The notes under the pieces were generated by a model. The model worked only from the letters and a program-made list of their open reading frames with translations. It was not told the DNA's origin and did not search any database. The translations under genes and the position numbers were made by a program. A stretch of DNA of 64,000 nt from Synechococcus sp. PCC 7335 (GTDB lineage Bacteria > Cyanobacteriota > Cyanobacteriia > Phormidesmidales > Phormidesmidaceae). The DNA lies in NCBI RefSeq assembly GCF_000155595.1, contig NZ_DS989904.1, positions 1,296,854 to 1,360,853 on the forward strand, given 5' to 3'. Below are positions 38,269-44,034 of this stretch, in pieces (the stretch's first letter is position 1; every line of letters starts with the position of its first letter).

Positions 38269-41200
38269 CTACGTTGTTTCTACCAAAATTACCCCCGCTG
38301 CTAGTTCTCTTTGGTCAGAGACCACATCGTCTCGTTTTTGTTGAATACTAATCAGCTTTACTTCTAGCTCTCTATTCACTTTGTTTAGCTGCCCTTGCGT
38401 TGCAGGAATGATGCGAGTTTTTCCAGATTGCTTGAATCTCTCTATCCGAGCGGCCAGTTCATGCTGTTTTCTTTCTGCGAAGGCACGGGCACTTTTTTCT
38501 TGAATGTCGCAGCGGCTGTCGTTTTCTTCGTAAAAGTCCTCTAGCGCTTTCCCAAAGGAGTCTTCTAAATCCTCTCTGCAGCGAGCTTGTGCTTCTATAA
38601 CGCTGTTAATATCTTGGATGAAGCTGCTTGCGTTGGGTTTGATCTGACCAACTCGCACCAGCGTTGAAAGGACAGACTCTGAGACCTGAGCGTCTAGCAG
38701 TTGATTATTCCCTACATTGATTAGCTTATAGGCAATTTGACTCTCTGTTCTAAGTCCTGTAAACGTCCACAGGTAAACGGCGTAAGCATAGAGACCAGCT
38801 TCCAGGTTGCTTTGTTCAGGAGTGGTGTGGATAGCGGAGACGGGATGAAGCGTTTGAGCGGCCGTGGCGTAGCGATCGCGTATCCATAGGATTAGAGGGT
38901 GAGTTGAGTCTAGTAGCTCGTTACGCTTGCCCATACTGCCCTTTATCTTAGGATCGAAAAAGCAGCTTACGGGCCCGCTGGACTTATGGAGTTGCGTAGG
39001 CGTGGCACAGCGATTTTGAGATATAAAAAACTGCAGATCGACCTTAGCTTTCTCGGATAGTGTGATATCAAACAAGCTAGAGTCTTGCTGCAAAGTGATG
39101 ACTGTTCCTGGGTAGTACCGGGAAAAACAGTCTTGGACAAAGGCATAGACCTCATCAGGCTGTAGCCATCTGCCTTTCGCCTTGCTCTCCTCAATCGCCT
39201 CTAGAATATGGTCAGAAAAGGCCAGCATATTTACAGCTTCCTTTTCTAGATTATCTTGAAGGAGCCGTTTATTCTCTAGCGCTGTCGCCGTTTGCTCAAT
39301 TCTAAGTCGTTCTTCTTCAGGGGTAAGGGTTTCTTCAAACAGCTCTAGCATCAGGTTTTCCGTCATCTCACCTAAGATGCTTTCAATATCGCCTACGCTT
39401 TCTTCAAAAATGCGAATTCGCTTATATAGCCGCTCTAAGATCTCAGCTTCAACCGTGTCTTTCAGGCTAAAGTTTACTATCGAAATTCGCTCGGCTTTTT
39501 GATTGAGTCTGTCTAGTCGGCCAATCCGCTGCTCTACCCGCATCGGATTCCAGGGCAGATCGTAGTTCACCAAAAAACGACAGTGCTGTAAGTCAATACC
39601 CTCGCTGCCTACTTCAGATGATAGCAGCACCGAAGGTCCCTCCGGTTGGCGAAATTGCTGAACGACTTCCCACTTGCGATCGCCCATATCACCCATGATT
39701 AGGCCCGTTGAAATGCCTGCTGCGTTCAGCCGACGCGCTAAATATTTCAACGTACCTCGAAAATAAGCAAAGATTACAAACTTTTGGGCCGAATCTTTTG
39801 CTAATTCACTGTCTAAAAAATCTTTAAGCTTGTTGTACTTACTGTCTTGCGCTTCTAAATCTAGGATACTTACTCGGTTAAAGCAAAGTGAGACAGTCGA
39901 AGAATTTTGTATTTCAGCGGCTTTGTGTAGCCGAGAAGCAATCCCCATATCTTCCCAAAGAGATTCTTCTACCAGACCTTTGAGGCTGTGATCCGCTCGC
40001 CAGGTTTCTAGTGCGGCTACCATACAGCTTGCCATCTGCCGCTGACGAGCAATTAAGCTCAATAGCGACACTCCTTTCTTGCCTTTGGTTTGACTGCGGA
40101 TTGCTTCGGTCACTTCATCGTAGAATTTTCGCTCTAGCGGTGAAAACTCGACGGTCAGCGTTTGAGGATCGCGCTTGACCCTATTGGGTAAAACGTCTCG
40201 CTTACGGCTGCGAGTAATATATTGTCCTAGCAGAGAAGATTTTTCTAGCTTGTAGCCTAGCTCTACTCGATCCGATTCTTCCAGCTTTACTGTGTCTGTG
40301 AGCGATTGTTCTAATTTCTCTTTGACCTGATTCAGCAGATAGCTATCTTTGAAATAGTGAGATTCTAATGCTTTATTGACAGCATCTCTTGCTTTCTTCG
40401 GCTCTGGTGGGCTAGCCCATAGATATCTCAGGGCCCTCATAACTGGCTGATTAGCACCTAACATGGTGCTGAAAATGTCTTCACTAAAAAAGTCGTCTGG
40501 ACTAATCAGCCGTAGCAGTTGAAATAGATTGGAGTTGTCAATCTGGACAGGGGTGGCTGTGAGCAGCAGTAGATAGCGCGAAGCATCACGGATAAGCCGA
40601 CCGACCAGATTGCTAGCAGTCGCTGCGTTTCTTAGATAGTGAGCTTCGTCAATGACAGCGAGATCAAACAAACCAAACTCATCATTGGCAGGGTTGGCGT
40701 CTAGCAATCGGGCTAATTCGGCTCGGGTATTTTTGGTGTTGATATCTTCCCAATTGCCGCTAGGTCGTAAGCCTTCTAGACTAGCAATACAGGCAAACGA
40801 CTGATTTTGCTGGCTTTCCAAGCAAAGTTTAGTACGCCCCAGTAAGTCTTTCGCATCGACAATCTCGGCAAAAATATTGAACCGCTGGGCAAGATCGTCT
40901 TTCCACTTTTGACGCAGCATCGCCGGGCAGACAATCAGTATCCGTCTGGCATCAGCGCGGGTCTGAAGTTCTTTCCAAATGTACATCGCTTCAATGGTCT
41001 TGCCCAGCCCCACTTCATCGGCAATCAAAAGTCTACCGACTGGAGAATCTAGAAGCTTTAGAACGGGTTTGAACTGATGCGCGTAGAAGTCTGTTTGACT
41101 AGACTCCATGCTATAGAACACATTGGTCAGCTCGCCTTTTATCTTTTCAAAAGTAAGGATTCTTCTTAGATCAGCAGGCCCGCCAAACCGTCCTTGTTTG

Positions 41201-41424
41201 AGAAGTTCTTCTACACTTTCATCTTCACTACAAAGCTCTAGTAAGTTCTTAGGCTTAAAGATTCTCTCAGCCGGTCCAAACCGAATTTCGACTAGTGTAC
41301 GGGTACCCGCTTGGCGTACTTTACCTGTAGTTTTACCACGTCTGCCGGGGTTAGCCTTGATTCGAACATCCTGATCAGGCTGTTTAGGGTCCCAGTCATT
41401 GACGCTTCGAGAGGACTTAATCAT
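38269..41424 (-). CDS. SNF2/RapA-like superfamily 2 DNA helicase
   Basis: 1051 residues. The helicase core shows motif I ADEVGLGKT (about 135-143), Q-like YAHQFKPV upstream, motif II DEAH (259-262), motif III LLLTATPVQ (about 286-294), motif V SSEVGSEGIDL (about 602-612) and motif VI QRIGRLDR (632-639). This is the SNF2/RapA (HepA) class that translocates on double-stranded DNA. The N-terminal ~80 residues are basic and beta-like (KVRQAGTRTLVEIRFG), possibly an SH3-like module. The ~400-residue C-terminus is helical and of no recognised family, ending with a coiled coil. It starts 46 bp after the Hsp70-like gene and is almost surely in its operon. It lacks the RapA N-terminal Tudor pair as far as I can judge. 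Confidence 0.92.
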   Translation of the reverse strand: MIKSSRSVNDWDPKQPDQDVRIKANPGRRGKTTGKVRQAGTRTLVEIRFGPAERIFKPKNLLELCSEDESVEELLKQGRFGGPADLRRILTFEKIKGELTNVFYSMESSQTDFYAHQFKPVLKLLDSPVGRLLIADEVGLGKTIEAMYIWKELQTRADARRILIVCPAMLRQKWKDDLAQRFNIFAEIVDAKDLLGRTKLCLESQQNQSFACIASLEGLRPSGNWEDINTKNTRAELARLLDANPANDEFGLFDLAVIDEAHYLRNAATASNLVGRLIRDASRYLLLLTATPVQIDNSNLFQLLRLISPDDFFSEDIFSTMLGANQPVMRALRYLWASPPEPKKARDAVNKALESHYFKDSYLLNQVKEKLEQSLTDTVKLEESDRVELGYKLEKSSLLGQYITRSRKRDVLPNRVKRDPQTLTVEFSPLERKFYDEVTEAIRSQTKGKKGVSLLSLIARQRQMASCMVAALETWRADHSLKGLVEESLWEDMGIASRLHKAAEIQNSSTVSLCFNRVSILDLEAQDSKYNKLKDFLDSELAKDSAQKFVIFAYFRGTLKYLARRLNAAGISTGLIMGDMGDRKWEVVQQFRQPEGPSVLLSSEVGSEGIDLQHCRFLVNYDLPWNPMRVEQRIGRLDRLNQKAERISIVNFSLKDTVEAEILERLYKRIRIFEESVGDIESILGEMTENLMLELFEETLTPEEERLRIEQTATALENKRLLQDNLEKEAVNMLAFSDHILEAIEESKAKGRWLQPDEVYAFVQDCFSRYYPGTVITLQQDSSLFDITLSEKAKVDLQFFISQNRCATPTQLHKSSGPVSCFFDPKIKGSMGKRNELLDSTHPLILWIRDRYATAAQTLHPVSAIHTTPEQSNLEAGLYAYAVYLWTFTGLRTESQIAYKLINVGNNQLLDAQVSESVLSTLVRVGQIKPNASSFIQDINSVIEAQARCREDLEDSFGKALEDFYEENDSRCDIQEKSARAFAERKQHELAARIERFKQSGKTRIIPATQGQLNKVNRELEVKLISIQQKRDDVVSDQRELAAGVILVETT

Positions 41425-41470
41425 CTATCTGCCTATCTGCAAAGAAGAACGAAAGCATAAGAGTAGATGC

Positions 41471-43765
41471 TTACATCAAATCACGGCTATCTTCGTATCT
41501 TTCGGGTGTATGCTCAGAGATTTCTGCGCCTGATTCTATCGTCTGGAACTGGCTAGGCAGTCTGATCTCGGGATTCTCTCCTTCAGGAATACAAAGACCA
41601 TAGGCGATCGCGAATCGGTTGAAATCTTTTTCGTCTAATCCGTTGACAACAAGATCTTGTGGCGTTGGAATCTGCCGCAGCTTGTAGGGAGGAATATCGG
41701 CATTCCCTTGCTTAAATTCGCTATGGGTCGCTTCGATAGTATCTGGAAAGAATTCCGTATTGCCGCCGCCGCCACCAATGAACACCTTTAAATTTTCTCC
41801 TATGTCTTTCTCGACAGAGAACTGTCGTATCTGTTGATGTTTTTCATTGCCATCCATCACTACCTCAGCTACCATGCTTTGGATCTTGTTGCGCGTTCTA
41901 CTATTCTGAAGCTGCTCACTGTGGGGACTATTAGACGGATCGCTAAGAAAGTGGCGAACGCTCTCAGGTGCTAGCTGTAGCTCGTCAGCAGTTTTTTCAA
42001 CAAAAGCACTCACACCTAGGGGCTCTACTTTACCGATATAGCAGTCTACTTTTCGACTGCCGTCGGTGCGATTGAAAATAAAAGCGGCTCCATCTAGCGT
42101 ACCATCACCAATATCAAAGAAGGTGTAGAACCCTTCCTGCGCCTGACGTGAGTTGATAAAAGACCACATCGCTGCGACAATCTCTGGGGTTGTCGTGCAA
42201 TCTAGCTGATTAATTTGTTCTTCTGTTTGAGCCCATTTTTCTAGATGCTTGGTCAACCGATTGAGGCTGCTGATAGTCAATGCTGATGTGTCGATGTCGC
42301 TACTTTTGATCAGCCAGGCGATCGCCAACACCTGCTCAAATGTCTTCAGAGCTTTGGAATCACAGTACTCTACAGGAACCCCTAGATTCACGCTCCAGCG
42401 TACGGTTCTATTCGCAAAAATTTCCGGTCTGTTCTGAATAGCCCACTGCTGAGACCGTGCTATCACCTGGCTTAGATAATAGGCGCATAAGCTTTTAACG
42501 GTTTCGTCATCATCTAGCTCAGCGATCTTTTCTAGTCGCCATTCCGCTTGCGCTTCGTCTGAATTCTCTTTATTGAGATCAATCGCTGCTAGCCGCATTT
42601 TGATGTAATCAATATTCTGTTGGATTGGCCGATTACAGGCTCGCCATTCTGTTACTGTTAATCCTGTCAGCAAGGTTCCATCTTCCAAGATGGCCAACCG
42701 AGTCGGCATCAGAGTTTCATCTAGGTCCAATGCGCTGTCTGTCAACCCAGTAAAAGTAACGACTTCCGCCTGCTCTAATGCTAAATCTCTTAGGCAAACT
42801 TTGGTATAGCCTGTTCCAAAGTCTATTCCTAAATTAATGTCTAGGTCGAAGTTATCGTCTGTCGGCAGTTGGGGCACAACATGACTAAAATCCGGTTCGA
42901 CGTCAGTATTTGCTGTTTTGGTTTCTGTTGAATCTAACCCGTCATCTGTTTGGTTAGATAGCTGTAAAGCGATCGCCTCAATTCTTGTTCTCAAACTTTC
43001 AATAACGATAGATAATTCAGACAGTTCAGAGCTTGTCTCTAGGCGAAGTTCTAACTGAGATATTCTCTCTGCGACTGTGGCTTTCTCGTCGTTGGCTCGC
43101 TGCTGTGCTTTGCGAATTTGATCGGTTTGTCGATCTGTGGCTGCTACTGTTTGACTAGATAGTGTGTTGAAGTCATCTCGTATATTCGCCAGCGCGGTAT
43201 CTATCTGCGCCCTCGATTGAGCCAAAGCTGCGGTTAAGTTCGCAACCTCTAGTCTGACTTGATCGCTCTCATCCTTTGCTGCTAGTGATGCTTGCCCCTG
43301 CTCACCTAGTCCTGTCTGAATTGTTTGCAACGCTATGCTAATGCGATTGAGTTCGCCTTCAACGACTGCCAACTTCTGTGTTTGTCTTGATATATCAGCG
43401 CGAAGCGTCTCGACGAGCTGAGTAAAGGTCTCTGCTTCTGCGCTGTTTTGCTGGGCAACTGCCTGAGTAAGTTTTTCGATCTCCTCTTGATAGTTCAGTC
43501 CTTGCTGCTCTACTTCGGATAGTCGCTGTTCAGCTTGGTGTGCTAGAGATGCAAGGTCCTGTGCTTTTTTAGCCTCATTTTGGATGATTTTATCTAGCTG
43601 CCGCGATCGCTGCTGGCGAGCAATCAAACTGAGCACGGCAGAAACTGACAGAGGCACGACAGCGTAGATAGCTTGCTGGGTCGTGAAAGCCGCGATCACA
43701 CCAACAACAGAAGCTGACACAGATACGTACTCGGCAAAGCGTACAAGCCTACGACTGATCGGCAT
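41471..43765 (-). CDS. membrane-anchored coiled-coil protein with Hsp70/actin-fold ATPase domain
   Basis: I use ATG 43765 (MPISRRLVRFAEYVSV; 764 residues), because it places the membrane region at the N-terminus; the frame opens at 43840. Two hydrophobic segments (about 12-28 and 31-49) are followed by a long predicted coiled coil (about 52-270, Gln/Glu/Ala-rich heptads). An acidic linker leads to an actin-like ATPase domain (about 308-760) with phosphate-1 motif NLGIDFGTGYTKVCL (about 311-325), phosphate-2 motif FFDIGDGTLDGAAF and adenosine motif VFIGGGGGNTEFF. It lacks an Hsp70 substrate-binding domain, so a classical chaperone is unlikely. It precedes the SNF2 helicase in a two-gene unit; a nucleotide-switched membrane scaffold is inferred. 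Confidence 0.88.
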   Translation of the reverse strand: MPISRRLVRFAEYVSVSASVVGVIAAFTTQQAIYAVVPLSVSAVLSLIARQQRSRQLDKIIQNEAKKAQDLASLAHQAEQRLSEVEQQGLNYQEEIEKLTQAVAQQNSAEAETFTQLVETLRADISRQTQKLAVVEGELNRISIALQTIQTGLGEQGQASLAAKDESDQVRLEVANLTAALAQSRAQIDTALANIRDDFNTLSSQTVAATDRQTDQIRKAQQRANDEKATVAERISQLELRLETSSELSELSIVIESLRTRIEAIALQLSNQTDDGLDSTETKTANTDVEPDFSHVVPQLPTDDNFDLDINLGIDFGTGYTKVCLRDLALEQAEVVTFTGLTDSALDLDETLMPTRLAILEDGTLLTGLTVTEWRACNRPIQQNIDYIKMRLAAIDLNKENSDEAQAEWRLEKIAELDDDETVKSLCAYYLSQVIARSQQWAIQNRPEIFANRTVRWSVNLGVPVEYCDSKALKTFEQVLAIAWLIKSSDIDTSALTISSLNRLTKHLEKWAQTEEQINQLDCTTTPEIVAAMWSFINSRQAQEGFYTFFDIGDGTLDGAAFIFNRTDGSRKVDCYIGKVEPLGVSAFVEKTADELQLAPESVRHFLSDPSNSPHSEQLQNSRTRNKIQSMVAEVVMDGNEKHQQIRQFSVEKDIGENLKVFIGGGGGNTEFFPDTIEATHSEFKQGNADIPPYKLRQIPTPQDLVVNGLDEKDFNRFAIAYGLCIPEGENPEIRLPSQFQTIESGAEISEHTPERYEDSRDLM

Positions 43766-43821
43766 GATGTATAGGAAAAACGAAGAGTATTCGGATCGTA
43801 TCAAACGGCATAGGTTTGGCC

Positions 43822-43846
43822 ACCCGTAGGCGCAGAGCATACGGGT
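43822..43846. promoter_or_regulatory. inverted repeat upstream of the Hsp70-like/SNF2 unit
   Basis: ACCCGTA (43822-43828) and TACGGGT (43840-43846) form a perfect 7-bp dyad with an 11-bp spacer, about 57 bp before ATG 43765. It could be an operator. It overlaps the alternative upstream start at 43840. Confidence 0.35.
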
Positions 43847-44034
43847 AGCAAATGTTCTCTAGTTGCCTCTAGTAGGAGAGAAAAGTAGTCAGCTAACGTA
43901 CGGAGGTAAGTCCTTTTTGAGAATGCGCATCCAACAAACCCATTCAGTAGAGTGTGATAGACAAAGCGGTAATGTTAGCTAGGCGATAAGTGCATCGTAG
44001 AGCTGGGTTCCGGCACAATGTAATCACCCTACCG

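Follow-up and report, generated by a model that had tools for sequence, protein, structure and literature searches.

What would an Hsp70-type ATPase do for an SNF2 helicase? The question is raised by two genes of Synechococcus sp. PCC 7335 that lie in the window, by which we mean the whole stretch of 64,000 nucleotides analysed here (genome G000, contig C1; the pair is at C1:1335-1341k). The original prediction described two same-strand genes 46 bp apart, encoding a membrane-anchored coiled-coil ATPase and a helicase, and proposed that a membrane-tethered nucleotide switch controls a DNA translocase in anti-phage defence or chromosome handling. Both genes are indeed on the minus strand with 46 bp between them, and the pair carries the following features.

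38269..41424, minus strand: helicase gene, 1051 aa, DrmD-like SNF2
38272..39327, minus strand: C-terminal region of the helicase, DrmD type, residues ~700-1051, with a weak RapA alignment
39445..41127, minus strand: SNF2 motor with two RecA-like domains, residues ~100-660
41425..41470, minus strand: intergenic gap of 46 bp, the helicase being downstream of the ATPase
41471..43840, minus strand: ATPase gene, 789 aa if read from its first ATG, 764 aa if read from the likely start at 43765
41531..42844, minus strand: Hsp70-type nucleotide-binding domain without a substrate-binding domain, residues ~333-770, from structure, profile and invariant residues
42956..43615, minus strand: predicted coiled coil, residues ~76-295, from low-confidence long helices and a weak SMC-type match
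43616..43750, minus strand: predicted two-helix membrane hairpin, residues ~31-75, from hydropathy and module relatives

Position 43765 is an internal ATG at residue 26 of the ATPase; it is a likelier start than the first ATG because homologues begin near there in the alignment. A terminator scan found no terminator-like site on the minus strand of the 46-bp gap, and the promoter scan returned 7 sites (7.3 in shuffles) and the terminator scan 9 (6.2 in shuffles). Viewed by eye, the pair is flanked by a permease/desulfurase pair and small genes, with BON and DUF2382 genes further out, and neither comparison with DISARM references nor inspection by eye identified a recognised defence neighbour. 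The pair is a real, conserved two-gene module, and its role is most likely defensive.

The DFGTGYTK and DIGDGTLDG motifs and the actin fold predicted for the ATPase were borne out. Residues D340, K414, E553, D576 and T581, which by their motifs would correspond to the Hsp70 catalytic residues, were invariant in 19 of 19 aligned ATPases. A profile of these proteins matched Hsp70-family chains among solved structures (best 3qfu, E 1.5e-5). An AlphaFold model numbered from residue 26 (pLDDT 60, pTM 0.55; mostly ~60-85 in the ATPase domain, with weaker stretches) had Hsp110 and DnaK as its best structural matches, led by Sse1/Hsp110 (3d2e_A; Z 24.0, rmsd 3.5, 325 aligned by VIA-align), with MreB 2wus next at Z 22.2. 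This gap does not by itself decide between Hsp70 and MreB. Hsp70 is favoured because K414 and E553 are invariant and would correspond to the catalytic Lys and Glu of Hsp70. The Hsp70-type domain spans ~308-745 of the 764 residues of the model, and since the protein ends soon after it, the ATPase lacks a substrate-binding domain, as had been foreseen. The window ATPase contains an Hsp70-type nucleotide-binding domain with the putative catalytic D, K, E and D.

The window ATPase had no Pfam match at E<=1, and no Hsp70 model was among the 18 Pfam families matched by the 19 members at E<=0.1, one of which matched hexokinase weakly (E 0.059). There was likewise no Hsp70-like or chaperone-named family among the best 25 of 27 PADLOC families for the ATPase relatives, and the PADLOC matches of the window ATPase were confined to the hairpin and coiled coil. 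The protein resembles Hsp70/DnaK and Hsp110 in the fold of the nucleotide-binding domain and its conserved catalytic motifs, and differs from them in having no substrate-binding domain or Pfam match, ~15% identity, and a helicase as its partner.

The helicase was predicted to be a complete SNF2 protein with a C-terminus of ~400 residues of no recognised family. The first part agrees with Pfam, which matched both SNF2 domains in full (PF00176 at residues 132-463, PF00271 at 530-640). The second part does not hold: the protein matches DrmD, a component of class 1 DISARM, end to end (PDLC02623/PDLC02621, NF038317), including a full-length match to the PADLOC model PDLC02623 (1003.7 bits, residues 11-1046 of 1051), so the C-terminus belongs to a known family. 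A nuclease in this C-terminus was considered and dropped; there was no nuclease-specific Pfam match, and the one restriction-labelled match, ResIII, overlies the motor. The structure model (pLDDT 62, pTM 0.34) is too weak to speak against a nuclease. A second structural comparison of that model covers mainly residues 102-656.

The match to DrmD does not make the protein the DrmD of a DISARM system. Against the NCBIfam model NF038317 (DISARM_DrmD) the window helicase scored 461.1 bits, below the cut-off of 610, and three of four other pair helicases also fell short (423, 416 and 384), whereas DrmDs from two DISARM operons scored 1178 and 960; a relative in genome G016 reached 329. When the 19 pair helicases were placed in a tree with four operon DrmDs and the G016 relative, the operon DrmDs (100/100) separated from the pair helicases (97/98), although the G016 long branch may be misplaced according to a program warning, and L068 and L059 are also long. 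Judged from sequence, the window helicase is a DrmD relative, yet other than the DrmD of a DISARM system, because it falls in a separate clade, misses the NF038317 cut-off, and comes from a genome whose DISARM loci carry their own DrmDs. Genome G027 has both kinds of helicase as neighbours in a single DISARM operon, the drmD product scoring 1142 bits with PDLC02621 and the pair helicase 1632 bits with PDLC02623. Since the two kinds separate in the tree and both occur in this operon, the PADLOC DrmD label covers two families.

The proposed check of adjacency across genomes supported the pairing. Of 24 ATPase loci in Cyanobacteria and Pseudomonadota, 21 have a recognisable SNF2 helicase next to the ATPase; the searches were aimed at these two groups, and at least 24 loci exist, the distribution being a lower bound. 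Among 386 genomes of the cyanobacterial phylum the ATPase search matched 60, which by query range comprised 51 with the N-terminal hairpin/coiled coil only and nine with the ATPase domain. Six of these nine had a full helicase adjacent, two a motor-less remnant, and one was an ATPase fragment without a helicase. Searched from the other side, the helicase profile (E<=1e-120) matched in seven of the 386 genomes. The ATPase is adjacent in six of them; in the seventh, G016, the helicase is preceded by a PDC-S68-like gene (by BLAST) and followed by a sacsin-domain gene. Among 38 relatives, the window's own genome included, the helicase was present in five and had the ATPase beside it in every one. 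In Pseudomonadota the ATPase was found at E<=1e-12 in 4 of 398 genomes, the Afipia search centre included, all four with the helicase. A scan of genome contigs added at least four further cyanobacteria and also recovered Afipia, with the helicase at all five loci (in interrupted frames at one), and five plasmid records held the pair in four cases, two of the five repeating loci already counted, as judged by equal record length and position.

All 20 measured pairs were adjacent and co-directional, with gaps of -8 to 185 bp. Distances within the ATPase and helicase families were strongly correlated (Mantel r 0.935, n=19, none of 9,999 permutations as high). At the sequence level this correlation points to co-inheritance, not function, and congruent trees can also arise when linked genes that do not work together are passed on vertically. 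The patchy presence of the helicase, and its copies on plasmids, make the chromosome-handling alternative of the original prediction unlikely.

Beyond cellular genomes, viral contigs yielded no confirmed ATPase relative (33 stretches matched the one pattern used, none of them a relative), and neither did phage records. The best 80 matches of a helicase scan of viral contigs were SNF2 relatives with <=40% identity in the best segment. A recent transfer, considered because the pair helicases of Shinella and G680 are near-identical, was dropped, as G680 may simply be a close relative. At L163:5917-15863, a PDC-S68-like gene, a distant DrmD-like helicase gene and a sacsin-domain (SACS) gene stand in a row, possibly a parallel with a different chaperone-type ATPase.

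The two motor-less helicase relatives (L049:7498-9003 and L050:7641-9275) lie next to the ATPase in G109 and G187. Both keep the C-terminal part of the protein, and L049 keeps the N-terminal part as well. The G187 ATPase is interrupted, and in that of G109 no start codon (ATG, GTG or TTG) precedes the first motif, so these pairs are probably decaying. If they were functional, the motor would be non-essential; both look partly decayed.

Two N-terminal membrane segments and a coiled coil of about 220 residues had been predicted for the ATPase. The long helices were found, at low confidence, in the AlphaFold model (37-161, 167-246 and 249-271 in its numbering), and residues 75-312 of the ATPase gave a weak SMC-type match. 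The two hydrophobic stretches are borderline; averaged over 19 residues, their Kyte-Doolittle hydropathy is 1.58 and 1.87. From these values, and because the two-helix motif is common to other cyanobacterial proteins, a membrane hairpin in the window ATPase is plausible rather than proven. A CBASS-like 2TM effector (PADLOC 'Effector 2TM', E 0.0013) was rejected as a weak match limited to the hairpin and coiled coil. At other cyanobacterial loci (L017-L038), 21 ORFs begin with a hairpin and coiled coil of the type 'EY..G.....QQ..YA..P'; inspected by eye, some of them end in WD40 or TPR repeats and others in nothing recognisable.

The anchor was not universal among the pairs. Six proteobacterial ATPases and one cyanobacterial group have no comparable N-terminal region, as judged by alignment and, for 14 of the 19 members, by hydropathy; the shared core is therefore the ATPase and the helicase. 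The partner helicases of the anchored ATPases form one clade of 7 rows in the helicase tree (98/97), while the ATPase tree places the same 7 rows in two groups whose joining it does not resolve. Anchor-free pairs have the helicase first and the ATPase second at all six proteobacterial loci and at six cyanobacterial loci, the latter grouping together in the helicase tree (99/99); in anchored pairs the order is reversed. By comparison of sequences, the membrane and coiled-coil part is derived and occurs in a single cyanobacterial clade of the helicase tree. The tether looks like an addition and not the core that the original prediction made of it, because pairs exist without it and its motif recurs in other cyanobacterial ORFs.

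Part of the pair loci lie among defence genes. In G027 the pair is inside a complete class 1 DISARM, in the order drmD, pair helicase, ATPase, drmMI, drmA, drmB, drmC. In an Afipia MAG, the pair, a PDC-S68 SF1 helicase gene, drmD, drmMI, drmA and drmB form one locus that has all of the class 1 set but an identified drmC. The pair lies beside McrB/McrC in G742, together with a C3a139-type PLD-SNF2 gene, and on an Aminobacter plasmid, together with Hachiman. Nuclease or helicase genes accompany it in G680 (PDC-S68, then an SNF2-like gene, a DUF4391 gene and a methylase gene) and in G639 (an SF1 helicase with an MTES_1575 nuclease, a weakly PLD-like gene and an SNF2-like gene). On a plasmid of Leptolyngbya BL0902, type I-D CRISPR genes are ~7 kb from the pair, and on a plasmid of Cyanobacterium HL-69, toxin-antitoxin genes, XerD and HsdR are within 20 kb. 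In Shinella a recombinase-like gene, identified by eye, is upstream of the pair. At most other cyanobacterial pair loci, comparison of the neighbours with DISARM references and inspection by eye found no recognised defence gene. Overall, chances are evenly balanced that the genes form a two-gene anti-phage (anti-foreign-DNA) module, one that would work by itself or supplement other systems of the restriction type.

The two DISARM settings also fit a narrower explanation, which makes the pair a peripheral part of DISARM: a further DrmD-type helicase and its ATPase would modulate the genome's own DISARM loci in trans. The G027 pair helicase passes the NF038317 cut-off (656 vs 610 bits), and the window genome has two complete class 1 DISARM loci elsewhere, each with drmD, drmMI, drmA, drmB and drmC.

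C2:608.6k-627.6k and C1:941.3k-964.5k: DISARM loci of G000 (L187-L190)

Their drmA and drmMI genes (C1:949-961k and C2:612-623k) are away from the pair, one locus being ~370 kb from it and the other on another contig. The locus of the pair itself does not combine drmMI, drmA, drmB, drmC and drmD. A DrmA match at E<=1e-40, present in 32 of 386 genomes of the cyanobacterial phylum, was commoner with the pair (4/6 vs 28/380; Fisher p 5e-4 in a test that ignores relatedness and genome size), and when the window genome was removed it was present in 3 of 5 pair genomes (p 0.004). This enrichment rests on six genomes, and the DrmA matches may include other YprA-family helicases. A search of 17 genomes at the same threshold found a DrmA match in six of the 14 with a full pair; eight had none, nor had the two motor-less genomes or G016. 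As other pair loci sit with McrBC or near CRISPR genes, we consider a role confined to DISARM unlikely.

Two other explanations set defence aside or make the membrane central. The helicase could be a RapA-like transcription factor with a chaperone-like helper, recycling RNA polymerase or repairing stalled complexes under stress. RapA was the best solved-structure match both by sequence profile (E 1.1e-48) and by Foldseek, the latter with a weak model (1096 columns, TM-score 0.21, rmsd 33.6), and a stress-type gene (DUF2382/YflT) is near the window pair. Yet the RapA model NF003426 gave 157.8 bits against a cut-off of 576, far below the DrmD models, and the pair is patchy, partly plasmid-borne and in part linked to defence genes, which leaves this explanation quite improbable. 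The window helicase shares with RapA, a bacterial SWI2/SNF2 protein, its motor and perhaps its overall architecture, and has another partner and distribution. Still less probable, to the point of being remote, is that the membrane-tethered nucleotide switch is the essential device and that anchor-free relatives are degenerate or do something else. The well-supported clade of anchored pairs, with its reversed gene order, would suit such a device. Against it, pairs without an anchor occur in two phyla and have the same active site conserved, and the deepest branches in the pair clade of the drawn tree belong to them; the anchor, moreover, is a widely shared cyanobacterial module. The defensive two-gene module accounts best for these observations.

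No named system matching the pair was found, in agreement with the original prediction. The pair differs from DISARM class 1 in that its helicases form a clade apart from the four operon DrmDs, co-occurring with one in two operons; its helicase is consistently partnered by an Hsp70-type ATPase, a protein with no DISARM model among its listed matches; and the window locus has no methylase, DrmA, DrmB or DrmC. The likeness to Zorya lies in a membrane protein next to an SNF2 helicase. Among the six PADLOC families listed for the window ATPase, none was ZorA or ZorB at E<=0.1, and the best ZorD match listed for the helicase reached 59.9 bits vs 1003.7 for DrmD. Three ZorA models each matched one of the 19 ATPase relatives (best E 6.2e-5), probably through the coiled coil. 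These family scores ruled out a Zorya-like reading.

An Hsp70-like ATPase in a restriction-type setting with McrBC has a precedent in the CoCoNuT type IV restriction systems, for which the accessible text of PMC11090510 describes CnuD, an Hsp70-like ATPase in predicted operons with McrBC. According to that text, CnuD carries a substrate-binding domain, its Walker A-like motif is degenerate and its Walker B-like motif usually conserved, and it acts together with McrB GTPases of the NxD kind; as far as that text goes, the pair ATPase differs in lacking the substrate-binding domain and conserving its catalytic motifs. The McrB of both McrBC-linked loci reads NTAD, that is NxxD, and no NxD McrB was seen by eye near the window pair. 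The NxxD McrB and the missing substrate-binding domain ruled out a CoCoNuT reading. ARMADA, in the accessible text of PMC12458937, has a RapA/BrxHII-like helicase in common with DISARM and is set apart by its definition through a YprA helicase and a PglX-like methylase; the words Hsp70, DnaK and DrmD do not occur in the main text available there. The role of DrmD within DISARM was left to future studies in the accessible part of PMC9142583. The accessible literature on DISARM, defence islands and Hsp70-like anti-phage proteins (including PMC11090510, PMC3710099, PMC9142583 and PMC12458937), a survey with subscription papers mostly outside its scope, yielded no description of the pair, although such a pair may have been predicted elsewhere. 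What looks new here is the ATPase-helicase pairing; the DrmD helicase family was already known.

In the mechanism that we favour, the DrmD-like SNF2 protein would most likely be a DNA-engaging motor that moves on foreign double-stranded DNA, and the Hsp70-type ATPase its dedicated partner, whose ATP binding and hydrolysis would load, hold or release the motor. We infer that the helicase is switched by the ATPase; the two proteins would interact physically, control would run from the ATPase to the helicase, DNA would be the target, and the activity would be anti-phage. A stand-alone pair would probably strip or stall proteins on invading DNA. The pair carries no recognised nuclease, which suggests either such stripping or stalling or a hand-over to accompanying nucleases; where the pair sits within DISARM or next to McrBC, it may pass DNA on to the nucleases of those systems. 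In the anchored cyanobacterial clade, the hairpin and coiled coil would hold the complex at the envelope, the entry site of phage DNA. More tentatively, and at rather less than an even chance for the proposal as a whole, the ATPase without a substrate-binding domain may be a dedicated nucleotide switch of a DrmD-family translocase that plugs into DISARM, McrBC and other systems, with one cyanobacterial branch fixed to the membrane to seize incoming DNA.

If this is true, an Hsp70-type ATPase has come to serve a DNA translocase as its partner in immunity; our searches found no description of the Hsp70 fold being used in this way. The PADLOC label 'DrmD' would then split into a DISARM family and a pair family that occurs with or without DISARM, and the pair would offer a way into the function of DrmD-type helicases. 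With its anchor, the cyanobacterial branch would become a case on which to test defence at the site where DNA enters.

Comparison with relatives in the same genus showed the pair following a permease gene in G000 and likewise in G387, where a Fic gene lies between. At the same site G386 has another large SNF2 protein after the permease, intact by Pfam, and G390 has such a protein in two frames, by BLAST and by eye (L181:3329-7558 / L183:3104-7385). In G391 the pair sits on another contig. These arrangements hint that the site holding the window pair is variable among relatives. The Fic/DOC gene of G387 (L051:5212-6126) stands between the permease and the ATPase; it was probably lost at the window locus, because the window keeps short remnants of it at 43976-44005 (30 bp at 90%). 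Fic enzymes modify the Hsp70 BiP in animals, as the FICD/AMPylated BiP structure entries record, which makes this gene an intriguing neighbour for an Hsp70-type ATPase.
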